Shown piece after piece: positions 9,741-57,910 of a DNA stretch of 64,000 bases. Position numbers and translations under genes: made by a program. The stretch covers positions 1,922,001 through 1,986,000 of the forward strand of contig JANTQA010000030.1 in assembly GCA_027625915.1 (NCBI GenBank), read 5' to 3'. Within the stretch, counting starts at the first letter, position 1. Every line of letters starts with the position of its first letter. The notes under the pieces are model-generated. The model had not been told where the DNA came from. It did no database searches and saw only the letters and a program-made list of their open reading frames with translations. The DNA comes from Anaeramoeba flamelloides (taxonomy: Eukaryota > Metamonada > Anaeramoebidae).

Positions 9741-10251
9741 TTAATATTACACGAATAAAAAATTCGAAAAGCACAATCATTTTTTTTGAAGCTAAAAATC
9801 TGTTATTTTCAAACAATTAATCTATAATATTGAGGAGAAACATTTTTCAAACCTTATTGAAAAAGTATTACATGAAAAACCAAATAAATTGAACCAAATT
9901 TATACAATATTCTTTATTTGATCAAAAAAGGAAAAAAAAACAAACTTAATTTTTTAAGTTCTTTTCCAAATTTATGATTATTTCAAGACAATTTCAATGT
10001 TAATTAGACCCAATTTGAATTGATTTCTCAGAAGAACTCAAAAAGTAAAGAATTTCTAACTCAAAAATTAAGTTATTTTAGATTCTTGATAAAAAAATAA
10101 AATAATTCAAAGTCTCAGATCAGAAACTGATAATGTCAGGGTTAATTATCAAAATCGTGATTTGATTAATCAAGTTCTGTGAAAACTTTTCATTTTTTTA
10201 TAAACAGTTTTTGTCAAATTTTTCAAAACTGCAACTTTGAAAAAATACGAT

Positions 10252-13200
10252 ATGGATCTATTTCAAATAATTGAACAAAATGATTTGGAATTGCTTAAAA
10301 AATATAGGCCAACTTTAGAGGAATTAAAGGCAAGGGATCAGGAAGGTTGGACTGCTTTTTTAAGATCCTTTCAAGATTCTAAAAAAGAAGAACTCCAGAA
10401 TTATTTGTTAGAGAACAAATTATTTCTGCCAAGTTTAAATGACATTGTGTCAATTTCAAAAGCAAAAGAAAATGAAAAAGAAAAAGAAGTTCAAAATGAG
10501 AAAAAAAAAAAACAACAAAAACAAAAAAAAAAAACAGGTGGCACTTATTTGGATGAAGCACGGTACTCTGTTTACATTCCGAATAAATTAAATTACAATT
10601 TGTTGAACACAAGCCTCAAAGAAGGTATTTCACAAAAGATTGTATCCAAATTGAAGACGATGGGTTTCAATTTGAATGATTCAATTAACAACGAATCTCT
10701 TTTTGGATTTACTACTTTGCACTTGGCGATTTTGGATGGTGTATCAATTGAAAGCTTACAAAGCACATTCGAGCAAGAATTTGCAAATTTCAAAACCTCG
10801 GTTTTCCAAAGGGATACTCGAGGAAGAATCTATTGGACCCCAGATTTGCTTTCAACGTATTTAATGAGGAACAAAATTGGAAAAGAGGAATTGGACTGCG
10901 AAGCGATGAAAGTGTTATACTCTTTGGAAAAACAGCGCCTTCACAAAACAAAAAAAGAATTAAAAAAGGAAATTGGCGTTATTTCGACACAGACAGGAAG
11001 AAACATGATCTCCTTGTACGCAATCCAGCCGGTTCATTATGCTGTCAGCAATGGGTGCGGTGTGAAGATTTTAAAGCAATTAAAGGAGTTTGGATTGGAT
11101 TTGGCCAAAGCAGATAGCGGGGGCAACAATGCACTTCATTATGCATGCAATTATCAAAGCGTTCAAGTTGAGACTCTCCAATTTTTAATTGCAAATGGGT
11201 GCGATCTTAATCAAGTTAACAAATTAAAGGTTTTACCGCTTCACTTTGCATGTTATTCAAATTGCTCACTCGGGGTTCTCAAATATTTACTTGAGCACAC
11301 AAAGGATCCGAATGTGAAAACTAGCCAAAATTTGAAAAAAATCTCCAAATATTATAACTATTCCAAAATGAAGCAAGAGAAATTAGACAATTCAACTTGC
11401 CTACATTATTTGTTATCCAACGGATCAAGATTAACAATGGAGAAAGTGAAATTGTTCCTTGAAAACGAAAAGTTTCAAATAGATAATAATTTCAAAAACT
11501 ATAAAGGGGAAAATTGTTTATACATTGGCTGTAAAAACGGGATTTCAATTGAAATTTTAAAATTCTTAATTGAAAAGGGATTAGACGATATTAAGCAAGT
11601 ATTACCAAAAAGGGGGAACAATTTATTATTGTTAATTTGTTCAAAAAATTGTGGATTAATTAAAAATAAATTACAGATGATAAATTTCCTATTGTCTCGC
11701 GGGTTGAATTATAAAATTAAAAACAATGAGGAGAAAAATGTTTTACATTTATTAATTGAAAAGGGTCTGTATCTTGGTGATGAGAATACGGGCGATAGCC
11801 GGGCGGGGAAAGAACAAGAAGAACAGAATATGCAATTAATTAAATTACTGATAAATAAAGGAGTTGATCCAGATGATCAAGATATAAATGGATTTACTCC
11901 GTTATCTTATGCCTGTAAAAATTTTTATAATCTAAATATTATTAAATTATTAATTACAGAATTTAATATCAATATTGGACTAAACAACCAAACACCATTA
12001 ACTTTGTATTTAAAAAACATTATCAATAACAGAAATTCAAAAGAAAAAGAGAAGAAATATAATGGGATCAAATTTTTAATAAATTCTGGTTCTGAAATTA
12101 ACATTCTTGATCAAAAGAATAAAAATAATTTATTACATTTGGCTATTTTATCAAAATCAAGCTACAGCGTTATTCAGAAATTAATTAAATTGGGTGCAAA
12201 TATAAATCATACAAATAACAATAATGAAACACCAATTCATTTGTTTTTAGATATCAACAATTATCAAAACAATAATGATAATCAAGGCACTGCTACCACC
12301 ACGAATACTAAAATTAGTAGTAATAATAATGATGATGATAATGATGATGATGAAAGTATTCAAGGCAATTATTCAAGGAGTTATTCTATGACTAATGAAG
12401 AAATTTATCAAATATTTTTATTATTAGCAAGCCACCTCAACATCAATGTGTACTCAACAAAAAATAAATGTAGAAAGGGCAATGGTAAAACTTTTAGATA
12501 TTTAGATAAACGATCCATTAATTTGCATTATAGGACATTTAGTTATGTTAATAGGAACTTTGAAAAGGAATTATTTAATCCACATTTAAAGGATGAGGAA
12601 AGCAAAGAAAATCAGCAAAAAGAGAATCCGAACAAGCCAAATATTGGGGAATTGCCATTACATTTAATTTGTAAGAATTTCAAAAATAAGCCAGATTTAC
12701 AATTAAAGCTAATTAAGGAAATATTAAACAGAAATCCAAAATTGATTAATACTAGGGACATGAATTCAGAAACACCGTTACATTTACTCTGTAGCTACCC
12801 CCTCGGCGATTTTGAAACAATACAATATTTAATTAAAAAAGGAGCCGATATCAACGCAAAAAATGATGACAATTCCATACCATTGCATTTAGCTTCACAA
12901 TATCGCGTATTTACAAAATTGGGTTATCAAAAGCTTCGAAACGAGTTTTTATTTATTAATAATAACCAAGAAAAATTTTTCAATCAAGATAATAAAAAAA
13001 GGGCGGAACATTATAAGATCGTCAAATGTTTAATTGAATGCGGTTCTGATATTAATTGTTTAAATTCAAAAATAGATTTACCATTACATTTTGCGTGCAG
13101 AGGAGATACGTCTGTAGAGGTTGTTGATTTATTGATCTCCAAAATAAATATTAATGTGTTAAGTAAGTTTGATGATGGGAGGAAAAGAACTGATCAAAGA

Positions 13201-16200
13201 AATTATTGGTACAATCGTACTCAAGATGAAAAATCGTTAATCACGGGCCTGTCGCGAATTCAGCCAGATGTGGATAAGGGGTTTTCACCATTGCACTTAG
13301 CCTGCTATCATTGTACCGACAACCGAGTCATAAAATTATTAATAGACAAAGGAGCTGATCTCGGAGTTCTGGATCAGTATTTGGAAACGCCCCTTTTTGA
13401 TTCAATCTCAAGAAACAATGAAGGCGCGACATTGTTACTATTAAATAATAAAAAGGAAAGCCTTAACTGTAATCAACGGAATAATGAAGGCGAAACGATA
13501 TTACATTTGGGATTAAAAATGGGAATCTCGATCAAAATTATCAAATTAATTTTGAAAAGGGGTATCAATTTATTTATAAGAGACCGCCACGATAATACAA
13601 TATTGCATACCCTATTTAGAACAGAATTTGGAAAGAATAGCTCTTGGTATGAATATTATACTCATTACAATTTTACCAAATATCAATTTGAAATTTGCAA
13701 ATTGATATTAAAATCAGAACACAATCTGATTAATTTAAAAAGTGATTTCGATCAAAGTGACAGTGCATTTTCAATTGAAATTACTAGAGAGGAATTAAGA
13801 AAGGTGGAAACAAGAAGAAAGCATTTAGATCGGCTTCATGAGGAATCACTGTTAAATTCTGAATTGACCTTTACCCAAATTCAACGCCAGCAACAAATAG
13901 AAGACGAAGACGAAGAATTTACGAATAGCCAACTAACCATTTTAAAAGACGGCATTGGTCCCACAGCCATGCAGCTTGCCTTAAGATATAATGTTAATCA
14001 TAAAATAATTCAGTTATTGATTGAGAACAATTGTGATTTAAATTTAACTGATTTTCAGGGGAAATCCGTTTTACACTATGCCGTTTATTATTTAATCGAT
14101 TTAGATTCGATACCATTGATATTCGATATATTGAAGGAACAAAAAGTAAATATTAATCAAATAGATAAATTAGGCAGAACTCCTTTACATTATTTATTTT
14201 TAAAGAAAAAATCAAAATTTAAGAATTATGATCAAAATATTAAATATACCCTAAATTTAATTAATTTATTTTGCCAATATGGTGCCAATATTAATTATAC
14301 TGATAATTTTGATGAAACACCTTTACACTATGCCTTTAAATTAAACGTGCCGTTCCCCATAATAAACCAATTAATTAACAAAGGCGCAGACCCTTCTTTG
14401 CAAAATAATGTTGGAATTACTAGTTTTCATTTATTTTTTAAAATCAAATACATCAACTTTAACCAATTTGAATTGCTGGTAAAATCCGTTTGTTTAAATA
14501 AGAATAAGAATAATTTAGTCTTGGAAAATAATGAAGGAACAACAATTGAAGATTTAATTTATAAATTATTAAGAAAATATCCTGAATTTTGGAAATTGGA
14601 TTTAATTAAATTAATAATTAAGAGTGGATTTAATATTTTGAAAGAATTCCAATTTTTTAGAAATGAGTCAAATAATTTATTATTTTTAGCTTTAAGACAA
14701 TGCTTTGATTTGGATATTATTAATTATTTGATTAAAAAGCAATTAGAATTGACAAAGAATAAAAAGAAGACTGGAAATGTTGAAAATGAAGAAAAGGGAA
14801 AGGAAAAGGAAAAGGAAAAGGAAACCGAAACAGAAAAGGATAAGGAAACAGAAAAAGATAATAAAAAAAATGATAATATTTTTAAAGATGATATCAATAA
14901 CAATGGAGAAAATGCTTTACATTTAATTTGTTCCAAACCAATTTTTAATACTTTTATTGAAAAAAAACAATTGAAAAATATCCAGAAAAATTGGGGAAAA
15001 ATAAAAATTATAAAATTAGAAATTATAAAATTAATTTTAAAATACAACCCAGATATAAATATAATGAAAATCTCTTGTGAAGGTAAAGCGCCAATTCACT
15101 ATGCTTGTGAAAATAACTTGGGATTGGAAATTATTAAATTCTTGGTTGGCAATGGTAGCTTGGTTAGTTTTGATTTAAACAATAAGAAATTCAGAGATTT
15201 AATTCTACAGCCAATTCATTCTGCAATGTACAGCAAACCACTAAACTTTGATATCATTAATTATTTGATCGAAAAGGGTGCCGATATTAACTCTGAAGAT
15301 TTCCATGAAAAGACACCATTGTATCAAGCATTACTCAATGGGTGTACATTAGAGGAAATCAAATTTCTCGTGAAAAAGGGATCGAAAATTAATGTAAGGC
15401 CAAAAAGTAGAAAAATTCCGTTAAAGGTAGCCATACGATTGTATTTTAATTTAAAGATTATAAATTTTTTAATTGATCAGGGTGCAAATACAAAATTTCT
15501 CGATTCCCATAAGAACACATTAATTCATTTCGCAGCAAGATACTCGCAGCCAATGCTAATTAATATTTTAGTCAAAAACGGTGTCGATATTAATGCCCTC
15601 AATGACAAAAATTTATCCGCATTACATTTGATCGTCAGGTTTCCTGAGTGCGATTATGATACCGTCAAGGCTCTCGTCGATAATGGCGCAGACGTTAATT
15701 TGCAGCATGACATTTGCTATTCGACACCTTTACATTATGCGACAAAAAAGAATAATAAAAGAATTTTGAATTTGTTATTACAAAAAAATCCTAATTGGGG
15801 ATTGTTTGACGAAACTTTCAAAACACCTATTGAGCTCATATCTTTGCATGAAAACTCTAATGAAATAATACCCCGGATTTTAAATTCAAACCCAGATATT
15901 GCAAATTTTGTTGTTCAAAAATGCCTCACAATTTGTAAAGAAAAAATTGAAACACAAAAGTATTTTTTACAATTTAATAATTTGCAAAAAATTTTTGAAC
16001 AATTTTTAATTAGACAAGAATTGGCTGATTTAATAAACGTTGAGAATAATATTAAAATACATTCCTTTATTTTTAAAATGAGATTTGGTAATGATTTGGA
16101 TTACAATAAAATTTTTAAAAAAATATGCAAAATCAAAGATAAAAATTTAATTCAAAAATTGTTATTGTACGTATATACTGGTAATATCTTATTTGAGGTG

Positions 16201-16773
16201 CCAGTTTATGAAGACAAAAGAAAGGTTTCTAATTTTCTATTAACACAGTATGCTCAGTATTATCTTAGAATGCATGAAACTTCCATCTCGAATTTTGAAA
16301 AATTGAAAAGAAATAAATATAAAGAAGAAAACGAAATTTTCCAACTATTGGTTAATTTGGGGCTAATTAAGAATAATTTTAAGAATTTTAGATATACAAT
16401 AGGTAGAAACGCTTTAATACACGATTTGTCAAAAATGTTGAACAATGCAGAATCAATGAATTTTACAATGTTTGTAGATAATAAACCAATCAAATTGCAT
16501 AAAGAAATTTTAATCATTAGATCAGATTTGTATAGAAACATGTTTATTTCAATAAATGATGAGACAAACGAAATAAAAGACTTTTCTGGGATAAGCTATA
16601 AGGCAATGAAAGTTTTAATACATTTTTTTTATACAGAAAGTATCTCAAAAGACATACAATTATCAATAATAGATGAATTGTTAGATCGAATTGATTATTT
16701 CCAATTAAACGAAAACACTAGCTTTGAAGAAAAATTAAAAGAAAAAACAATGGATTTATTAAAAAAAAAATAA
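10252..16773 (+). CDS. Giant ankyrin-repeat protein with two C-terminal BTB-like domains (2173 aa)
   Basis: I place the start at the ATG at 10252 (MDLFQIIEQNDLELL), because the open frame upstream reaches only a TTG. It is a single exon. Ankyrin motifs of the TPLHLA / LLIEKGADIN type recur from about residue 153 (GFTTLHLAILDG) to about 1823 (STPLHYATKKNN), dozens in all, interrupted by low-complexity inserts: Lys/Gln-rich about 73-95, Asn/Asp-rich about 687-703, Glu/Lys-rich about 1513-1540. The C-terminus has a degenerate BTB/POZ-like block (about 1924-2040, including LLLYVYTGN) and a clearer one from about 2069 (FTMFVDNKPIKLHKEIL … VLIHFFYTE). BTB domains commonly dimerise and can bind cullin-3, and ankyrin arrays bind proteins, so a scaffold or ubiquitin-ligase adaptor role is plausible but inferred. 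No signal peptide or membrane segment is visible. Its length is far beyond usual ankyrin-BTB proteins. Confidence 0.93.
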   Translation: MDLFQIIEQNDLELLKKYRPTLEELKARDQEGWTAFLRSFQDSKKEELQNYLLENKLFLPSLNDIVSISKAKENEKEKEVQNEKKKKQQKQKKKTGGTYLDEARYSVYIPNKLNYNLLNTSLKEGISQKIVSKLKTMGFNLNDSINNESLFGFTTLHLAILDGVSIESLQSTFEQEFANFKTSVFQRDTRGRIYWTPDLLSTYLMRNKIGKEELDCEAMKVLYSLEKQRLHKTKKELKKEIGVISTQTGRNMISLYAIQPVHYAVSNGCGVKILKQLKEFGLDLAKADSGGNNALHYACNYQSVQVETLQFLIANGCDLNQVNKLKVLPLHFACYSNCSLGVLKYLLEHTKDPNVKTSQNLKKISKYYNYSKMKQEKLDNSTCLHYLLSNGSRLTMEKVKLFLENEKFQIDNNFKNYKGENCLYIGCKNGISIEILKFLIEKGLDDIKQVLPKRGNNLLLLICSKNCGLIKNKLQMINFLLSRGLNYKIKNNEEKNVLHLLIEKGLYLGDENTGDSRAGKEQEEQNMQLIKLLINKGVDPDDQDINGFTPLSYACKNFYNLNIIKLLITEFNINIGLNNQTPLTLYLKNIINNRNSKEKEKKYNGIKFLINSGSEINILDQKNKNNLLHLAILSKSSYSVIQKLIKLGANINHTNNNNETPIHLFLDINNYQNNNDNQGTATTTNTKISSNNNDDDNDDDESIQGNYSRSYSMTNEEIYQIFLLLASHLNINVYSTKNKCRKGNGKTFRYLDKRSINLHYRTFSYVNRNFEKELFNPHLKDEESKENQQKENPNKPNIGELPLHLICKNFKNKPDLQLKLIKEILNRNPKLINTRDMNSETPLHLLCSYPLGDFETIQYLIKKGADINAKNDDNSIPLHLASQYRVFTKLGYQKLRNEFLFINNNQEKFFNQDNKKRAEHYKIVKCLIECGSDINCLNSKIDLPLHFACRGDTSVEVVDLLISKININVLSKFDDGRKRTDQRNYWYNRTQDEKSLITGLSRIQPDVDKGFSPLHLACYHCTDNRVIKLLIDKGADLGVLDQYLETPLFDSISRNNEGATLLLLNNKKESLNCNQRNNEGETILHLGLKMGISIKIIKLILKRGINLFIRDRHDNTILHTLFRTEFGKNSSWYEYYTHYNFTKYQFEICKLILKSEHNLINLKSDFDQSDSAFSIEITREELRKVETRRKHLDRLHEESLLNSELTFTQIQRQQQIEDEDEEFTNSQLTILKDGIGPTAMQLALRYNVNHKIIQLLIENNCDLNLTDFQGKSVLHYAVYYLIDLDSIPLIFDILKEQKVNINQIDKLGRTPLHYLFLKKKSKFKNYDQNIKYTLNLINLFCQYGANINYTDNFDETPLHYAFKLNVPFPIINQLINKGADPSLQNNVGITSFHLFFKIKYINFNQFELLVKSVCLNKNKNNLVLENNEGTTIEDLIYKLLRKYPEFWKLDLIKLIIKSGFNILKEFQFFRNESNNLLFLALRQCFDLDIINYLIKKQLELTKNKKKTGNVENEEKGKEKEKEKETETEKDKETEKDNKKNDNIFKDDINNNGENALHLICSKPIFNTFIEKKQLKNIQKNWGKIKIIKLEIIKLILKYNPDINIMKISCEGKAPIHYACENNLGLEIIKFLVGNGSLVSFDLNNKKFRDLILQPIHSAMYSKPLNFDIINYLIEKGADINSEDFHEKTPLYQALLNGCTLEEIKFLVKKGSKINVRPKSRKIPLKVAIRLYFNLKIINFLIDQGANTKFLDSHKNTLIHFAARYSQPMLINILVKNGVDINALNDKNLSALHLIVRFPECDYDTVKALVDNGADVNLQHDICYSTPLHYATKKNNKRILNLLLQKNPNWGLFDETFKTPIELISLHENSNEIIPRILNSNPDIANFVVQKCLTICKEKIETQKYFLQFNNLQKIFEQFLIRQELADLINVENNIKIHSFIFKMRFGNDLDYNKIFKKICKIKDKNLIQKLLLYVYTGNILFEVPVYEDKRKVSNFLLTQYAQYYLRMHETSISNFEKLKRNKYKEENEIFQLLVNLGLIKNNFKNFRYTIGRNALIHDLSKMLNNAESMNFTMFVDNKPIKLHKEILIIRSDLYRNMFISINDETNEIKDFSGISYKAMKVLIHFFYTESISKDIQLSIIDELLDRIDYFQLNENTSFEEKLKEKTMDLLKKK

Positions 16774-22224: not shown

Positions 22225-23313
22225 TTATAATATAATACAACAACCTTTACCATTATCTGTTTTGGTGCTATCTTTCTTTTCGTTTTTTGGTTGCCTGTGT
22301 TTCCTGATTTCTTTTACGCATTCTTGGAAAGCCTCTTTAGTGTTTTTACCAGTTTTTGCAGAGGTCTCAAAAAATTTGACATTTCCCCAGTCTTTTGCTA
22401 ATTGCTTACCGTCTTCGGTTGAAACATCCCTGCTATCTTCAAGATCACTTTTGTTTCCAACGAGCACAAATGGGACATCTTCGCTACTTCGTGCCCTATG
22501 GATTTGACCTCGAAGTTTGGAAACAAATTGGAAACTGTTTTGGTTTGTAATCGAGTATACAATCAAAAACCCATCACCAACAGTTAGATGCTAATTGTTT
22601 TGTGTTTTGGAAGAATTAAAAAAAATTGATAAAAAAAAAAAAAAGATTTGTTGGTTTTTTGTTGAAAAAAAAAATTTCATTTATTAAAAAAAAAAAAAAA
22701 TAGAAAAGGAAAAAGAAAAAGAAAAGGAAAAAGAAAAAGAAAAAGAATAAGAAAAAGAAAAAATTTTTAATTTTCAAACAGTATCACGAAGAACTTGAAA
22801 TTCCTCTTGTCCCGCTGTATCAACAATATCAATTTGACAAGCTTTTTTGTCAATTACCCTAAAGAAATTAAGATCCAAAAAAGGTTGATAACAAAAAAAA
22901 ATAAAAAAAAAAAATTAAAATAAATAAAAATAAAAATAAAGGCTTAGCGCAACAAGTAGGGAATCTTTTTCTCTTGGGAATAAAATTTACGTTTGTGTCC
23001 TAAAAGCCTCCTCTTTTGGTAGTGATTTGTTTCAGTGTTATTAATTTTGGGATCGAACGTATGACAACAAAGTTCATCAAAGATAAAGAAGGAAAATAAA
23101 AAATTCAAAAAAAAAGAAAAAATTTTGGAAAAAAAAATTAATTTAGCAAGCAAAAGAATATCCTCAAAGATCGAAAACGGTAACCAAACCAAGTGTAGGG
23201 TTGTATTCTTCTCTAAATTCATCACAAACAAAACGAAGTGTAAGACACGATTTCCCAACACCACCATCCCCAACAACTACAATTTCAACATTGTCTACGT
23301 TTTCTGATGTCAT
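22225..23313 (-). CDS. Ras-family small GTPase, four exons including a 22-nt micro-exon
   Basis: Exons on the minus strand: 23313-23190, 23012-22991, 22858-22780 and 22590-22225. Phases join exactly to 196 residues. Seen: P-loop GDGGVGKS (15-22), effector loop YNPTLEEAF (37-45), DTAGQEEF (62-69), NKSD (121-124), ETSAK (150-154) and a C-terminal CIIL CAAX box, whose final Leu favours geranylgeranylation. The residues matching human Gly12, Gly13 and Gln61 are intact, so normal GTP switching is expected. The effector loop differs from the classical IEDSY by E-A-F. The 22-nt exon (AG acceptor, GTAAAT donor) restores both reading phase and the exact number of residues between switch I and the VID strand. 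Introns are 177, 132 and 189 nt; the third has a long GAAAAA-type tract. The protein should act at membranes as a signalling switch. Confidence 0.93.
22991..23012 (-). other. 22-nt micro-exon of the Ras gene
   Basis: It supplies E-A-F-R-T-Q plus split codons on either side. The preceding exon ends in phase 1 and the next begins with a single codon-completing base, so an exon of length 1 mod 3 is required, and 22 nt fits. The resulting segment [14 protein letters not shown] aligns without gaps to PTIEDSYRKQVVID of Ras. A 19-nt alternative (about 22953-22971) fits phase but gives a poor Ras alignment. Confidence 0.8.
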
Positions 23314-24219
23314 CTGTTTTTAAGTCTATTGAGTAATAAAAAGAAGCAAGCTTTCTAAATTGAGTCAAATAAATTTTAAAATAAATTTTACAAAAAATAG
23401 AAAAATTAATCTTTTGAGTTTTTTCAAGATAATTTTTATTTTTTGAAAAGGTAGATTTTTCCGAAAAAGCCAAATAATTAAAAACTTGACAAGTCGTATT
23501 CTTGAAAGAAGGTTAGAAATTAATAATAATTTTCCTTTTTTACAAGAAAAAAATTGACATATTAAAAATCACTTTTAAACTGAGTTTTACTTTTCAAAAC
23601 TATTGTGATTGAAGTACGCGTTATCGAATAAGAGGAAATCTTTTAAAGGTTATATTTGGAAATATGTTCAAATCGCTTTTTCTTCACATCTTTAAAGTGA
23701 ACAAAAGATCTCACAGGTGGAATTTCGGGGTTTGTGTTTTACACTATTTCCAAAGTTTGGTAGAGAAAATTTGAATTAAAAAATCTTGCAAAAACGTTAT
23801 TTATTTTTCCTTTTGAAATAATTTCTAAGGAATATTGTGTTTGTTCTTCTCCTTTTTTAACATCCGTTTTTTTTCCATTTATCAACAATTGTATAAATTT
23901 GCTCAAAAACAATTACTTTGTTTGAAGATTTAAAAAAACCTTACCTGGTGCTTTTCAAGCAAAAAAAAAATCAATAATTCAAAATTCTCTAAGGGCTTGT
24001 CTCCTGAAGGGAAGTTGGTGAGTAGAGATAATCAGAAAAAAATTTAACTTATTCTGAGGTTGCCTAAAAAACTAATTAGATTTCCTGAGTTCGAATGTAA
24101 GAAATAGTTGTATTGACTACACGAATCGCGAACATTTGGAAAAGTAAAAAAGAATAGGATATTAAAATTCAATAAACCATGATTATGAAAAGTACTTATA
24201 TATCCCAAAAAATTTCAGA

Positions 24220-27578: not shown

Positions 27579-28745
27579 TTAAAATTTTTTAATTTCAGAA
27601 ATAATTCTTGATTGCCCAGTTTTATTTCTTTTATAAGCAATTGTGAATCTACGGTTTCTTTTTTGATGTTTTTGATAATCATCAACATAATCCTTAAGAA
27701 AGGAATTGGAAGAAGATGTAGTGGTGTGTGAGAAAGTTTGTCGTGTTTTTGCTCGATCTTCTTTACCATTTTGAAGATTCTTCTTTTTAGAGTTTGTGTT
27801 TTTTTTTCTTTCGCTCTTTTTCATTACTTTTGTATTTATTTTTTTTTTCCAAAATTTTAAAAATCTTTTTTTTTTGTTTTTAGTATTTACACGTGGTGTT
27901 GTATTTGTACTTGTATTTGTGCTTGTAGGTGTACTTGTATTTGTATTTGTATTTGTATTTCCACTTCCCAAATCATTTGATAATAAAAATTCTTTCCAAT
28001 CAAATGTATTACCCGATATTTCAATTTGATCCTTGATAGAATTATTTCCGCCCGAGTTCCTCTTAATTATTGGTACCGTTTCGGGTTTATCTTTAGTGAT
28101 TTTTTTTCTTACATTTTTATTTATATTCAAATGATTTATTAAATCAGAATTTATATTTTTATTTTCGATTTTTTTTGATTTTGTTTTGTTAACATTTTTA
28201 ATTTCTTCGTCTTTAAGGATTGTTTCCGATTCAACCAGAAAATCAAAAATCCCTAATTCATAACCACCAACTTCTTCCTTTTTCTCTTCAATTTGTTTTT
28301 CCTTTTTTTTCTTTTTAAATTTGAAGACATTTGCTTTACTATTAATGTTTTTCATTTTTGATTCACGATAGGATTTTTTTAGAGTCGAGGAATTGCTTTC
28401 ATGTTTGTTATCTGATTGGTTTAATATGATCATTGATTGATACCCATTTTTTAAAGTGGATTCCTGCCCTATCAAATCCGTTATTTTCTTTCTTTCCTGA
28501 TATCTAATAAAATCCAATTCCAAAGAATTAATTTTTTTATTAAGTAAATGATTATTATCTTTTCTTTTCAAAAGATTGTCTTCAACTTTATGAATGAATT
28601 TATTCCACATTTGGGATTTTCTCAAAGTTTGGAAAAAAATAAGGATCTTTACTTTTTTAAGTTTTTCATTGCAAAAAGATTCTTCATCAAATATAATTTT
28701 TGTTTCTTTATTTTCTTTTGTATTTTTATTTTCAATTCCTATTAG

Positions 28746-28785
<40 letters not shown>

Positions 28786-29511
28786 TTATTGGTGGTGGTT
28801 GTACTACCAGTTCCAGTTTCTATTTGCCGGAAATACAGTAAAAAATCAGCAAGTAAATCATTAAAAAAATTATAAAAATATTTGTGGATTTTTTGAGTAA
28901 TTATTAGTTTCTCTATTATCTCTCCTAAATGTATTTTGTTGAATAATTTTTTTAATTTTTTATGTAACACAGACATTAAATCTTTCGGCACCAAATCAAA
29001 ATCATCTATATCATATGCAACATAGTCGTTATCTAAATCCACATAAACAATATCTTCTAATTCTAATTCTTCAATCTTTGGGATCAGTGAAGAATGTACA
29101 CCAATTAAATAGGGCAATGGCGATGAACATACATCGAGTAACGATAATGGCAAAACACTAATAAAAATTCCCTGCCACGACAGTGGCTCCAAAAGTGTAT
29201 TGCAGGCCATGATTGAATACGTTAACTTTTCTAACGAGGCCGATGAAAAGAGAATTTTTCTTTCACAAAAAATTGATACAAATATACATAACACTCTTTT
29301 CCAATTCAAATTTTCAAATAAAATAGATAAATGTTGATATGATTCCCTTTTAAATTTCTGTTTCCCCATTCCAATTTCTAGTATCAAATCTTCATTATTC
29401 TTGGGCATAATACTCTCTTCAATAGATAAAAAAAAATTGCTTAAATAAATTGTATTATCAATTTTTTCTTCAATAAATTCAATTAATGATCTAAATAATG
29501 TAAAATATTGA
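27579..29511 (-). CDS. DENN-domain protein, 3' exon (643 aa), 5' exon(s) not found
   Basis: DENN proteins are usually guanine-nucleotide exchange factors for Rab GTPases. The open frame has an ATG at 29408, but the frame continues upstream as QYFTLFRSLIEFIEEKIDN, typical of the start of a cDENN module, to an acceptor ending TTATAG at 29512; I therefore extend the exon to 29511. Seen: SIFCERKILFSSASLEKLT, ACNTLLEPLSWQGIFISVLP, SSPLPYLIGVHSS and DIVYVDLDND (cDENN core), then a likely dDENN helix region, then a long disordered tail with poly-Asn (about 250), Lys-rich blocks and a Thr/Asn/Ser repeat encoded by a TTTGTACTTG-like tandem. The uDENN module and start codon are missing; they must lie upstream, possibly beyond the inserted element at 29688-30883. 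The basic C-terminus has no obvious targeting motif. Confidence 0.85.
27897..27961 (-). repeat. Minisatellite encoding the Asn/Thr/Ser-rich tract of the DENN protein
   Basis: Six-base units of the kind TGTATT / TGTACT repeat about ten times and encode alternating Asn-Thr, Ser-Thr and Pro-Thr. The tract stays in frame with the DENN open reading frame. It is likely to be length-polymorphic. Confidence 0.75.
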
Positions 29512-29687
29512 CTATAATCAATTCAAAAAAAAAACAAATATTTTTTTTATTTGATAGGAATGTTTTTTTGTTTTATTTATTTTTTTTTTTGGTGTGATAA
29601 ATATTAAGATTATTAGTTTAATTATAAAATACTGAAAAAGAATTTTTTTTTTTATTTTTTTTTTTATTTTTTTTTGTGGATTTAATA

Positions 29688-49131: not shown

Positions 49132-49656
49132 ATGTCTGAAGAAAAAAAAACAGATCGAAGAAGAAGAAGACGAAGGCGTAAAAAAGAAGGAGAAGAAGGT
49201 GGCGAAAAAAAAGAAGGTGGTGAAGAAGTAAAAATTGAAGGCGGAGAAGAAAAAAAAGAAGGCGGAAGAAGAAGACACAGAAGACGTAAAAAAGAAGGAG
49301 AAGTAGGTGGCGAAAAAAAAGAAGGTGGTGAAAAGAAAAAAAAACCACGTTTTGTTGTGAAAAAATGGAACGCAGTTGCTCTTTGGTCTTGGGGTAAGTT
49401 TTTTTGTTATTTCTCATTTTTTCTCACTTCAATGTTTTTTTTTTTTAAGATTTTTACTTTTTTTTATTTTTTTTTTTTTTTTTATTTTTTTTTAAATCTC
49501 TTTGAATGATTTCTTAAACAGATCTCAAGGTTGATACTTGTGCTATTTGTAGAAATCAATTAATGGATCTCTGTATTGAATGCCAGGCTAATCCAAATTC
49601 TTCCACAACCGAAGAATGTAATGTTGCATGGGGTGTTTGTAATCGTAAGTTACCTT

Positions 49657-49689
<33 letters not shown>

Positions 49690-49915
49690 CTTTCCTTTTC
49701 CTTTCTTTCTTGTAAATAATCAAAATTTTTTTTATTTAATCCTAAAATTTGTGGTTCTTTTCAACTATTTAAAATTAATGTTACCAAACCTCTCAATTAT
49801 AATTAATTTAACTTGAATAGATGCTTTTCATTTCCATTGTATCACCCGTTGGTTAAAAACTCGTTCTGTTTGTCCTTTGTGTAATCGAGATGTAAATTAT
49901 TTTCTTTTCTGTTAA
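49132..49915 (+). CDS. RBX1: RBX1/ROC1 RING-H2 subunit of cullin-RING ubiquitin ligases, three exons
   Basis: RBX1 binds the cullin C-terminus and recruits the E2 for ubiquitin or NEDD8 transfer. Exons: 49132-49393, 49522-49644 and 49821-49915; donors GTAAGT, acceptors AACAG and AATAG; 159 residues. Seen: the cullin-binding strand [11 protein letters not shown] (77-87), then CAIC (94-97), CIEC (105-108), [20 protein letters not shown] (124-143) and CPLCNRDV (146-153). The seven other zinc ligands are in place. The last ligand is Cys149, as in RBX2/SAG, where RBX1 has Asp, and the tail YFLFC replaces the usual tryptophan-containing end. The N-terminus is extended by about 50 residues relative to the ~108-residue family: a run of eight Arg and two copies of a [19 protein letters not shown] unit, encoded by duplicated DNA. 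The overall sequence is closest to RBX1 despite the RBX2-like Cys. Confidence 0.95.
49158..49340 (+). repeat. Duplicated Arg/Lys/Glu/Gly-coding unit in RBX1 exon 1
   Basis: GCGTAAAAAAGAAGGAGAAG and GGTGGCGAAAAAAAAGAAGG followed by TGGTGAA occur twice (about 49169-49228 and 49277-49336), about 108 bp apart and in frame. The duplication accounts for most of the N-terminal extension of this RBX1 protein. Confidence 0.85.
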
Positions 49916-52875: not shown

Positions 52876-55800
52876 TTATTTTTTCAATTTTGTTAGCAAA
52901 TGTCCTGCAATAAATCCACCTGTTGCACCCAATCCAATCATATATAGAATATCCTTTGTATTGGGGTCATCTTTCTTTTCTTGTTTTGTTTCTTTCTTTT
53001 TTTTTTCCTGTGGCTTTTCTATCACAATTTTAGGCTTCCTTAATTGTGGATTTCTTTCTTGATCAACAATTTGAACACCTTTACTTGCACCAATTCTTGT
53101 TGCCCCGTTTTGAATCATTTCCGAAGCCGAATTAAAGTTTCTAATTCCGCCTGATGCTTTAACTTCCCTCTTTATTGGTTTACAATTATTTTTTAGATCA
53201 AAAGAGAAAATAAAGTAATGGTTTAATTATTTTATAGCTACATATAAATATTAAAAATAAATTCGTTTGATTAATATTAAAAATTGGGTATTTTTTTTTA
53301 TTTATTTATTTTTTTCAAATCTTTATTTCTTTCACATAACCAATTTATTAAAAATAAATTTTGTTTGTGATTTTGTTTGAGAAAATTTTTGAATTGTTTT
53401 TTAAATTTTATTGGATTTGACTAAAAAAATAATCAATTAAAAATTAATTTTATGTTTTTAATTTTGAAAAACAAAAAAATATTAAAACGAGATTAACCAT
53501 TTTATTCAAAAAAGGATAAAATTTATTCGTTTAAAAAAAAAAAATAATAAAGAATATATATTCTCTGTCATAAATAGTTACTAAAAAAGTTTTTAAAGAA
53601 TTCAATTTTTTTTTCTTTATTTGAATCTTGATGAATTTACCATAATTCGTGATTTGAAATAATTAATTTGATTTTTTAAATTATCTTTTTTTAAAAAAGA
53701 AAATTAAGAGAAAAAAAAACAATTTCATATTAGGGAAAAAAAAAAAAAAGTTTAATTTTTTGATAATGTACAAAAACAAACCCTGGATCATATTTTTCTT
53801 TTTTTGGAATTTTAATAAATATAATAATGTTTTTTAAAAAAATCCGATACTAAAATGATAAATGATTGTAAAAAAAAATTTGTTTTGAAACCTAGAACTT
53901 AATTTTTAAAAATATATTTTATTTTATGTGGTCATTTTAAAAATTGTGACAAACAAATTCATAAAACAACTACTATTATGAAACTGTATCTTCAATTCCC
54001 AGCCTTGTAAAAATCAAAAAATAAACAATTTCAAAGTAATAATGAAATAAATACTTTTAACTATCTGTGATTTCTGTGATTTCTGTGATTTCGATGATTT
54101 CTTTTATTTTGAAATTCAATTTTTGAATTTGTTTATTGAAAAAATAAATTTTTTCGTATGATTCAACAGAAATAGAAATTTTTCTTTGATGGGATTCGGA
54201 ACTGAATTTTATATTTCATAAAATAAAATATAAGAAGAGAAAATAATGTCTATGTATAGTAAAAAATTGAGGTGCTGTTACTGTAAATCTAATATCAAAA
54301 TAATTCCATTTTGTTTGTCTTAAAATTATAATTAGGAGAAAATTGGATTTATTCCCAATTAACTTGAAATATCTGAGATATATTTTAATTTTCTTTTAAT
54401 ACATATTTTTTTTCTTTTTATAAAACTCTCTGAAGATTGTTAAATTTGTTTCTTGGAACGAATTGCTTTAATTGGTAATTTTTATTTTAAATAAAGTTTG
54501 AACATTTTCCAATTTAAAAAATTTTAATTCTGAGAACATTTCTGAAATTTTTTTTTTGAGGGCCACATATATTGAAGCTTTGTAATCAAAAGAGCCTTAA
54601 TTACTTTATTTGTGAAAAAAAAAAACAAAGTAAATCAGAATGGATTTGCTAAAATTTTCGATTTTTTGAATAATTTTTTTCGATTAAATTTTTTGAGTTT
54701 TATTAAATTCTGTTTTGATCTTGAAATTTTTTTTGGTGGATACTTGAAATTAATCATAGAACAAACCAAAAAAATAGAACTAGGAAGGTGTGTATTTTAA
54801 ACAAATCTTTTCTTTTTAAGTACCAAAAAAGAAAGATCACCTTTCCAAAGAAACTTGTTCAAAACAAGAACGAATGAAAAAATTTTTTTCAAGACCACAG
54901 TATATTTTCGAAGATATTTTGACTTCTTTATACTATTAATTTGAATTAACCTAAGCAAGAGATTACCCTGAAACTCTCGTACCATTCCTATTAATTGTTT
55001 TTTTAGAAAAAATATTTCGATACAAATTTATTTTCAAGAATTCTTTCTTTACATATTGTTATTAAACTAAGCCAATACAAAGAATATTGCTTCGAAGGTT
55101 AAACTAAAGGGATTAAGAATTCTCGAAATCAAAAAAACATCAAAAAGGTTCAACCCAAACTCAAAGAAAAAGAGAATATGGTAAAAATTAAAATCTTGAT
55201 TCAGAATTATTTTTAGTTTTTTAATTGTTTTTGAAAATAAATAATTATAAAATCAAACAAATTTGTCAAATAAATCTTTATTTCTGAAGAGGAATTCAAA
55301 AAAATATCCTATTTTCTTGAACCAAGATAAAATTAGATGAATTGAATGAAAATTGGAAATGAAAATTCATTTTGGAAAATTCTTTTGAAATTGAAAGTAA
55401 ACTTCAATTGACTCAAAGTAGTTGAGCCAAAAATGAAAAATTCACTTTTATTTAAGAATCAACCAAACGAAGATTGTTTAGAAATTAGAGAAATAATAGT
55501 CTTGATATTAGAGTTGAGATTCATAAAAGAAATACCTGAACAAACCATAAATTTCAAAAAAAAAAAACAATGTTAAAAAAATTTTTGGTCCCATTTCATT
55601 GGAGCACCTTTGTGTAAAATCTCTCAATTGCTTTAGAAAATTAAAATTGTTGACAATAAGATTTTTTAATTGTAAGTGATGGTTTTTATAAGAAAACACA
55701 AAGTCTCAATTGTCTTAAAGTTAATTGGAGTTTTATAGGAATTGTTTTTTTCTCTCTTGTAAAAAAAAGAAATAAAAAAGAAAAAAAGCAAAATAAAAAA

Positions 55801-57910
55801 AAAAAAAAAATTAATATCAACGTATAAAAAATGATTTTGATTTAAAAATTTTAAATTTATTTTGAGAAGAATAATGAATTAAACTCAGAGAATAGGTTGT
55901 ATTACTTCAATAAAACTGGGCCCCTTTGACTGAAAAAGAGTTTAATTTGTTTCTCAAAAAAATTTCGAATAAAAGTTTTTCCGTTCAGAATTAAAAATAA
56001 AACTGAGTAAAGAATAAGTAATCACCAAAGGACACATAAAAGATCAATAAATAAATCTGATTTTATTTTTTTTTCTGGATCAATTTTTTAATTATTTCGA
56101 TTTCCATTATTTAATTGGTATATAAATATATTATACAAGAATATCTTCCACTTCATTATTTATTAAAATATTAAAGTATTTGGTTAAAAAAATGATTTTA
56201 ATAATTCAGTTTTGCATAAATGATGGCACTCAAAATTGGTAAAATGTACCTACTTCTCAAATTGAAATATCCAAAAAGAAAAAACAATTTGTGTTATTAT
56301 ATAACCGTTGGGGACAAAAAGTTTTACAAGAAAAAAAGTTCAACACGATTTTTAATGGTAAACCTTAATAGGCCACAGAAACCTGAAAATGAAAAGCGAA
56401 ATCAATTAATAAAAGAAAAAAACAATGAAAGACAAAATGGAGGTGTTCAACACAATAACGGTTTTTTTAATACCATCTTTTGATGTGGATTTTTTCTTTG
56501 ATTGATCAATTATCAAAAATTTGTTCAAAAAATTGACTATTTTTTATATCTCCAAAACCACATTTTGTATTTCGATAATCAAGCAGATTTTAAAGTGAAT
56601 TTGTAGATTTGGTTGATAATAATATAAGGGATTATTCTTAAAAGTTAATTTATTTCTTCTTTTTATCGATTTTCCTTTTCGTTTTTTGTTTTTGTGTTCC
56701 ATTAAGGTACCCAATTAAAAACTCTTTTGGTCTTTTTTTAATCGTTTTACTTTTTTTCAAGAAGGGTAAATATACAAACTAACTAAAAAAAGCGAAAAAA
56801 AAAAAAAATAACTGCTTTTTGAGAAAGAATAAAAGATAAAATTCAGAAACAATTGGAATACCTCTTCACCAACAACAAGCTTCATTAAGCGAATGTCTTC
56901 GCTTTTTGCACCGCCTGTACTAAACCCAGTTGAAGTTTTGACAAAATGAGCATCTGCGAGCACACTAAGGATAGATGCGTCAATGATTTCAATTTCATCG
57001 AGCAAAGCTGTTTCAAGAATGACCTTTGTAGAAGCGCCACAGTCCACAATTGATTTGATATCATTTAAGACATATTTATAATCCAAGTCTTTTAATTTGC
57101 CAACGTTAATGACCATATCGATCTCTGTGGCTCCAGAGTTTATTGCAAATTCTGTTTCATTGACCTTTGTTGAAGTGCTTGTTGCACCAAGATGGAAACC
57201 AACGACACTTGCTATCTTGACATCTGTTCCTCTGAGATTATTTACTGCTTCTGGTACACGTGACGAATTCACACAAACAGAATAGAACTTTAATTATTGT
57301 AACAAAAATCAAAAGAGTTTTTTTTTTTTTTTTTTTTTTTTTATGAATATTTGATTGTTAAACCATTGAACAGAAATGTTCAACAAAAAAAAAGAAATTC
57401 GATTTGAAATAGTTTTAGTTTTTGCTATTTTTTTTTGTTTTTTCAGCAAAACGGTTGAAAAGCAAGTCGATTTTAAAAAAGTTTGACAAAAAATATTTTA
57501 ACGTAGATCTGAAGTAAAAAACATTTCAATTGGAGTTTGGTCAACGTTATTTTTCTCTCTAGACTTTTGAGAATTTTTTTCTTTTCACCTTTTTGAAAAT
57601 AAGATGAAAAAAAGCCAGTAAAACAAAAGCAAAAATAAAAAGAAAAAAAAAATATGAAAGTTTTTACATTATAATCAATGGCTTCATTGCACAACTTTTT
57701 AATATCTTTGCTTGTTGCATGTGAATGTAAATTTGTATGATCAATAAATCGCTCTAAATGATTAGGCTCTGAAATCTCTAATTTATCCTTGTTTAGATGA
57801 TTGAAGTGTTTTAATATTTCTTCTTTTTGAAGGCCAAGTTGCTTAGCAACAAAGTTAATTCTTGAACGAATTAAATTTTTGGTTTTTTGATCAAATACAA
57901 GACTTCTCAT
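52876..57910 (-). CDS. DERA: Deoxyribose-phosphate aldolase with a C-terminal membrane tail, three exons
   Basis: DERA cleaves 2-deoxyribose-5-phosphate to glyceraldehyde-3-phosphate and acetaldehyde. Exons (-): 57910-57668, 57287-56862 and 53169-52876; all joins are phase 0, giving 320 residues. Joins rebuild family motifs: [17 protein letters not shown] and [17 protein letters not shown]. Key residues seen: Asp138 in EIDMVIN, the Schiff-base Lys198 in VKTSTGF and Lys227 in VKASGGIR. The aldolase ends with [14 protein letters not shown] (about 245-258). The last exon adds 62 residues: a Lys/Glu-rich linker and one hydrophobic segment, [19 protein letters not shown] (297-315), followed by TKLKK. 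This looks like a tail anchor, placing the enzyme on the cytosolic face of an organelle; that is inference and unusual for DERA. Introns are 380 nt and about 3692 nt, the second exceptionally long here and full of repeats. Acceptors end TAAAG with no pyrimidine tract. Confidence 0.93.
54064..54100. repeat. 9-bp tandem repeat (TTCTGTGAT)
   Basis: Three consecutive TTCTGTGAT-type units plus a variant (TTCGATGAT), inside the long DERA intron. Confidence 0.85.
55780..55960. repeat. Dispersed repeat, copy related to 7396-7570
   Basis: AAAAAATGATTTTGATTTAA, TTTTGAGAAGAATAATGAAT and CCCCTTTGACTGAAAAAGAG are in the same order and spacing as in the copy at 7396-7570. An A/G-rich tract precedes both. 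The copy lies inside the long DERA intron. Confidence 0.55.
56220..56483 (+). CDS. Unrecognised 87-aa frame antisense inside the DERA intron
   Basis: It starts with a true ATG and encodes a basic protein ([20 protein letters not shown] … [17 protein letters not shown]). It has no recognised domain, signal peptide or membrane segment. The C-terminal third is polar (Asn, Glu, Lys, Arg, Gln). The composition is more protein-like than most chance frames here, but its position inside an intron, downstream of a dispersed repeat, means that chance or a transposon remnant is at least as likely. Confidence 0.2.
   Translation: MMALKIGKMYLLLKLKYPKRKNNLCYYITVGDKKFYKKKSSTRFLMVNLNRPQKPENEKRNQLIKEKNNERQNGGVQHNNGFFNTIF

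Follow-up and report, generated by a model that had tools for sequence, protein, structure and literature searches.

Why would a deoxyribose-phosphate aldolase (DERA), an enzyme of nucleoside breakdown that is usually regarded as soluble, end in what looks like a membrane anchor? The question is raised by a gene in a 64,000-nucleotide stretch (the window) of the Anaeramoeba flamelloides genome (GCA_027625915.1, contig JANTQA010000030.1, here C30, positions 1,922,001 to 1,986,000), for which a first-pass annotation had proposed an active enzyme given a new location on the surface of an organelle. The anchor-like tail was found on every DERA detected in the genome, and here it is proposed that the family is held by a tail anchor, with the cytosolic side of the outer membrane of a hydrogenosome as its most likely place, a proposal that is given about an even chance of being right.

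The profile TIGR00126 gave 17 exon matches at E up to 1 in the genome (254 Mb, 76 contigs), which fall by position into six DERA loci, on contigs C30 (the window), C1, C13, C9, C51 and C48. Both intron positions are common to the six loci, with a second intron of 153 to 5680 bp, and in each of them a charged linker leads into a moderately hydrophobic segment and then a basic end, with the stop codon downstream of the anchor. The same profile search over the 254 Mb brought up no DERA lacking a tail. The identity to the window protein is 98% for C1, 89% for C13, 57% for C9 and C51, and 34% for C48, and the tail residues D296, G302 and K317 do not vary among the six paralogs, which span three diverged groups. 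The possibility that close relatives uniformly lack the tail, which the first-pass annotation had named as fatal to its proposal, does not hold in this genome. The DERA genes of C30 and C1 may not be independent paralogs, because each has a PNP-family gene within about 250 kb (at about 1.73-1.98 Mb of C30 and about 5.92-6.17 Mb of C1); this pair of regions suggests a segmental duplication, homeologues or diverged haplotypes. PNP-family matches were also found on C57 as two pairs with identical scores and opposite orientation (C57:4626667-4631196 and 4789031-4793642), resembling an inverted duplication.

Beyond the aldolase fold, the window protein continues with a charged linker (residues 259-295), a glycine-rich apolar 19-mer (297-315) and the terminal TKLKK. 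The hydrophobic segment described in the first-pass annotation is confirmed as an anchor-like element, and one under selection. No other 19-mer of the protein is as hydrophobic, its Kyte-Doolittle hydropathy (KD) being 1.57 and the best value elsewhere 1.39, and on the Wimley-White octanol scale it is the sole favourable region (-2.1, the aldolase part reaching +5.1 at best). Shuffling the 62-residue tail yielded an equally hydrophobic 19-mer once in 20,000 trials, and for four other DERA tails the observed value was reached 0, 0, 3 and 11 times per 20,000. A structure predicted for exon 3 alone, from the single sequence, has a helix at residues 292-318, with low confidence for the model as a whole (mean predicted local distance difference test score, pLDDT, 66; predicted template modelling score, pTM, 0.23). 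The predicted layout is that of a tail-anchored protein, a soluble barrel followed by a single segment close to the end of the 320 residues, and insertion of the tail into a membrane is likely, judging from the sequence. A Pfam scan of the six proteins gave only matches below cut-off outside DeoC. One of these, DUF543 (PF04418), which we take to be Mic10, shares a glycine-rich membrane segment with the tail and matches weakly at residues 275-317 of the window protein; a Mic10-type domain was rejected, with 13.4 bits against a gathering cut-off of 24.1 and matches at E up to 1 in two of the six members.

The genome search with the tail of the window protein gave 10 matches. Three of them are the group-A loci, one is C48 (E 0.3), and the remaining six are weak (E 0.6-8). 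A tail common to unrelated proteins was rejected on the reading of four weak matches (L105 and L108 fall outside these four), three of which look like chance similarity between Lys/Glu-rich stretches. The fourth, a separate small frame, L104 (C43:1277473-1277628), has a Lys-rich linker, an apolar segment with a KD of 2.41 and a very basic end, and is a candidate tail-anchored protein in its own right. In viral contigs, 44 stretches included two DERA relatives, and neither has an anchor at its end.

The anchor segment is under purifying selection while the linker drifts. By the Nei-Gojobori method, the ratio of non-synonymous to synonymous change (dN/dS) of the anchor was 0.00 (C30-C1), 0.124 (C30-C13), 0.080 (C1-C13) and 0.097 (C9-C51), the basic end being included for the first three pairs and the anchor taken alone for C9-C51. 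In the same order, the linker values were 0.395, 0.224, 0.199 and 0.422, above the anchor in all four pairs, and the aldolase part gave 0.05-0.10. The corresponding one-sided Fisher tests gave p values of 0.0025, 0.00097, 4e-5 and 0.041.

The window protein is a class I DERA of bacterial type (TIGR00126, E 4e-73, 245.3 bits against a cut-off of 117.3, residues 52-258), and its best solved chain is 3r12 (barrel residues 52-259, E 3e-65), which we take to be the DERA of Thermotoga maritima. D138, K198 (in VKTSTG) and K227 (in VKASGG) are all present, as the first-pass annotation had read them, and match by motif Asp102, Lys167 and Lys201 of the Escherichia coli enzyme, in which Lys167 is described as the Schiff-base lysine and Asp102 and Lys201 as catalytic (PMC8403123). 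The same three residues are kept in four other copies of groups A and B (C1, C13, C9 and C51), and the window protein is presumably an active enzyme. The sixth copy (L102, C48:11099748-11100862) keeps D138 and K198, has Q at position 227 and has altered motifs around both lysines; its three exons are open and the tail is retained despite the loss of K227. It is probably a tailed pseudoenzyme that has lost catalysis, and it suggests that the anchor is able to outlive the catalytic site. The catalytic residues and the tail agree with the idea of an active enzyme in a new location, but not with that of a single relocated enzyme, since every DERA detected has a tail and one of these copies looks catalytically dead.

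The best 80 of at least 526 confirmed bacterial relatives were all measured. Bacterial class I DERA (DeoC, TIGR00126) and the window protein are alike in the aldolase barrel, in the active-site residues and, for some relatives, in an N-terminal extension; in contrast to the tailed proteins, the bacterial ones have a short end after the fold, no anchor and often a terminal tyrosine. In 79 of the 80 there are 1-24 residues beyond the fold, the remaining one (L046) being fused to a further 354, and none of the 80 has an anchor-like C-terminus, no testable stretch exceeding a KD of 1.1. A C-terminal tyrosine, which takes part in catalysis in the E. coli enzyme (PMC8403123), is found in 51 of the 80 (the fusion L046 counted) and is lacking in the tailed proteins; its loss need not mean lost activity, because the other 29 bacterial relatives are also without it. 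An N-terminal presequence was considered as the targeting signal and rejected: residues 1-50 of the window protein form an extension that is present in some bacterial DERAs too, with 10 of the 80 rows aligning from residue 17 or earlier, so a presequence is not needed as an explanation. In a tree of 86 rows the six eukaryotic rows need two changes, a single one sufficing in 32% of the 200 bootstrap trees, and the branch of C48 is extreme. A reduced quick tree, without C48, L010, L023, L024 and L058, places the five rows of groups A and B in one clade (Shimodaira-Hasegawa-like approximate likelihood-ratio test, SH-aLRT, 99). Because the full tree with C48 gives no single clade, a single origin of the family rests mainly on the common introns; the enzyme itself would have been acquired from bacteria.

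As to which membrane the tail would enter, the six DERA anchors have a KD of 1.43-1.61 and a net charge of +3 to +8 after the segment. SNARE proteins of the same genome served as a control: a synaptobrevin profile gave 24 matches, 20 of them with loci, and 17 were examined (L144, L152 and L153 were left out, and L138 was skipped in the anchor reading of the 17). In seven the open frame includes a membrane segment, with a KD of 3.12-3.58, and four have a short Cys-rich end without a membrane segment. In the other five (KD 0.24-1.99) the frame read shows no convincing segment, and these may continue in another exon. Miro, with three genome matches, has a C-terminal segment with a KD of 1.56-2.14 and a Lys-rich end in all three, and the one gene of the three that was checked has Miro-type domains. 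The hydrogenosomal tail anchors TA4, TA7 and TA10 of Trichomonas have a grand average of hydropathy (GRAVY) of 1.63, 1.41 and 1.68 (PMC7446849, Table 5), such anchors being described as segments of 19-23 residues followed by 2-7 basic residues (PMC3174187), and the flat Hessa sum of TA4 (+2.75) is near that of the window segment. Moderate hydropathy with a basic end, the criterion for outer-membrane anchors of mitochondria and hydrogenosomes, is found in all six DERA copies. Additionally, the genome has 48 matches to [FeFe]-hydrogenase (PF02906), 26 of them nearly full-length at E below 1e-78, a strong expansion from which a hydrogenosome-type organelle is expected in the host; some of the 48 may be relatives with other functions.

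Several observations weigh against a hydrogenosomal anchor. The flat Hessa sum of the window segment is unfavourable (+2.8), which makes it a weak anchor by the standards of the endoplasmic reticulum (ER), and the sums of +2.1 to +5.0 over the DERA tails mark them as weakly hydrophobic. The tail window of the copy B2 lies at +0.2 on the octanol scale, and the aldolase part of C48 has a 19-mer with a KD above that of its tail (1.68 against 1.43); on the octanol scale the C48 tail is a clear outlier (-6.4 versus +2.1 in the aldolase part). The pairs used for the selection analysis overlap and have only 22-25 codons each. When expressed in yeast, TA4 ends up in the ER in an inverted orientation, and hydrogenosomal anchors partly mis-sort there (PMC7446849), so hydropathy features do not fix the destination, TA4 being the closest hydropathy match. 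Furthermore, a Pex19 C-terminal domain is matched at C30:2263663-2263896 (L157, E 2.9e-9, 49 bits with the cut-off at 22.2). A basic end combined with low hydrophobicity is also said to send tail-anchored proteins to peroxisomes (PMC7446849). Anchoring in a membrane is likely; with Pex19 present, a rule that fits peroxisomes as well and anchors that mis-sort in yeast, the hydrogenosome is the best but not the sole candidate.

A true anchor inserted via Pex19 into a peroxisome or a peroxisome-derived vesicle is accordingly the least improbable of the alternatives, though an unlikely one; anaerobic peroxisomes are known in Entamoeba and Pelomyxa, but Monocercomonoides has no discernible Pex3, and its divergent Pex19 is believed to work in a different process (PMC10703272). 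Pex3 had no match in the genome, in a search that matched nowhere and is uninformative on absence. Less probable again is a true anchor for the ER or another endomembrane, including a symbiont-surrounding membrane, should the host possess such a membrane: in yeast, hydrogenosomal anchors of comparable hydropathy arrive at the ER (PMC7446849), which makes the feature rules for the two destinations overlap, but the seven SNARE anchors of the genome are far more hydrophobic than those of DERA. Ranked between these two is a selected C-terminal helix that stays out of the bilayer and serves in oligomerisation or partner binding of a soluble enzyme. The spacing of G304, G308 and G312 could pack helices and the energy of bilayer insertion is marginal, but the spacing is lost in C48, and the extreme C-terminal place, the length of about 19, the basic end and the apolar substitutions suit an anchor. 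That the tail is an annotation artefact, intron or untranslated sequence read through next to a long, AT-rich intron 2, is hardly credible and was rejected: the tail shares an open exon with K227, each of the six loci has its stop codon after the anchor, and synonymous changes exceed non-synonymous ones. The organelle surface suggested in the first-pass annotation fares unevenly: the likeness of the tail to the Miro and Trichomonas anchors speaks for a mitochondrion-related organelle rather than the endomembrane system, but the genome also has a Pex19 gene.

For the hydrogenosome, it may be envisaged that a bacterial-type class I DERA was acquired by an anaerobic protist and duplicated, and is found in the genome only in tail-anchored form. 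The barrel, carried on the charged linker as on a flexible stalk, would face the cytosol and cleave deoxyribose-5-phosphate to glyceraldehyde-3-phosphate and acetaldehyde. The short, moderately hydrophobic and glycine-rich helix, followed by the basic end, would enter the outer membrane of the hydrogenosome-type organelle post-translationally, with the possible benefit that the products are released beside the organelle. A broader version is more tentative and on balance doubtful, namely that this deoxyribose catabolic step moved whole to the hydrogenosome surface, the bacterial enzyme having lost its Tyr-type C-terminus and the anchor having been fixed before duplication, with no soluble copy and with the tailed pseudoenzyme as a possible structural or regulatory partner.

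The exon model of the first-pass annotation agrees with the structure found here, and its features are listed in the table below.

Table. Features of the DERA gene, in window positions.
Feature	Position	Strand	Remarks
Window DERA gene	52876..57910	-	three exons, in-frame join, 320 aa + stop
Exon 1, residues 1-81	57668..57910	-	
Intron 1	57288..57667	-	380 bp, GT-AG, phase 0; position common to six loci
Exon 2, residues 82-223	56862..57287	-	holds D138 (57117-57119) and K198 (56937-56939); TIGR00126 match
Intron 2	53170..56861	-	3692 bp, GT-AG, phase 0; position common to six loci
Exon 3, residues 224-320 + stop	52876..53169	-	holds K227 (53158-53160)
Charged linker, residues 259-295	52954..53064	-	linker dN/dS 0.20-0.42
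Predicted tail-anchor segment, residues 297-315	52894..52950	-	hydropathy, modelled helix, selection
Basic C-terminal element TKLKK, residues 316-320	52879..52893	-	K317 invariant in six paralogs

Elsewhere in the window, and named by eye, are RING-box exons resembling RBX1 and extended at the N-terminus by a long stretch rich in Arg, Lys, Glu and Gly (49132-49712, forward strand), Ras-family-like GTPase exons with a C-terminal CIIL (22228-23319, reverse strand), an ankyrin-repeat-like frame of 2189 codons (10204-16773, forward strand) and a DENN-like frame (27579-29522, reverse strand).

In a literature search that most subscription papers lie outside, no publication was found pairing deoxyribose-phosphate aldolase with 'tail-anchored' or 'Trichomonas', and no title on a membrane-bound DERA was among those pairing the enzyme with 'transmembrane'. 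Passages of PMC8887013 and PMC10703272 make no mention of deoxyribose. The enzyme itself is known; what is new here is that, in one anaerobic protist, all the DERAs detected bear an anchor-like tail under selection. Because tail anchors and DERAs are both familiar, the surprise lies in this completeness and in the tailed pseudoenzyme rather than in the kind of protein. It makes testable the idea that anaerobic protists tether nucleoside catabolism to hydrogen-producing organelles.

Among known systems, Miro of the same genome is alike in its moderate anchor hydropathy and Lys-rich end and differs as an unrelated GTPase, the likeness being one of anchor properties only. TA4, TA7 and TA10 of Trichomonas vaginalis are alike in having one C-terminal segment of about 20 residues, a GRAVY of 1.41-1.68 and a basic end. 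The tail-anchored genes first listed for Trichomonas hydrogenosomes are described as hypothetical proteins with no significant homology elsewhere (PMC3174187), and unlike the hypothetical TA4, TA7 and TA10 genes, which it resembles in anchor properties, the window DERA is a defined metabolic enzyme, on which such a tail would be informative.

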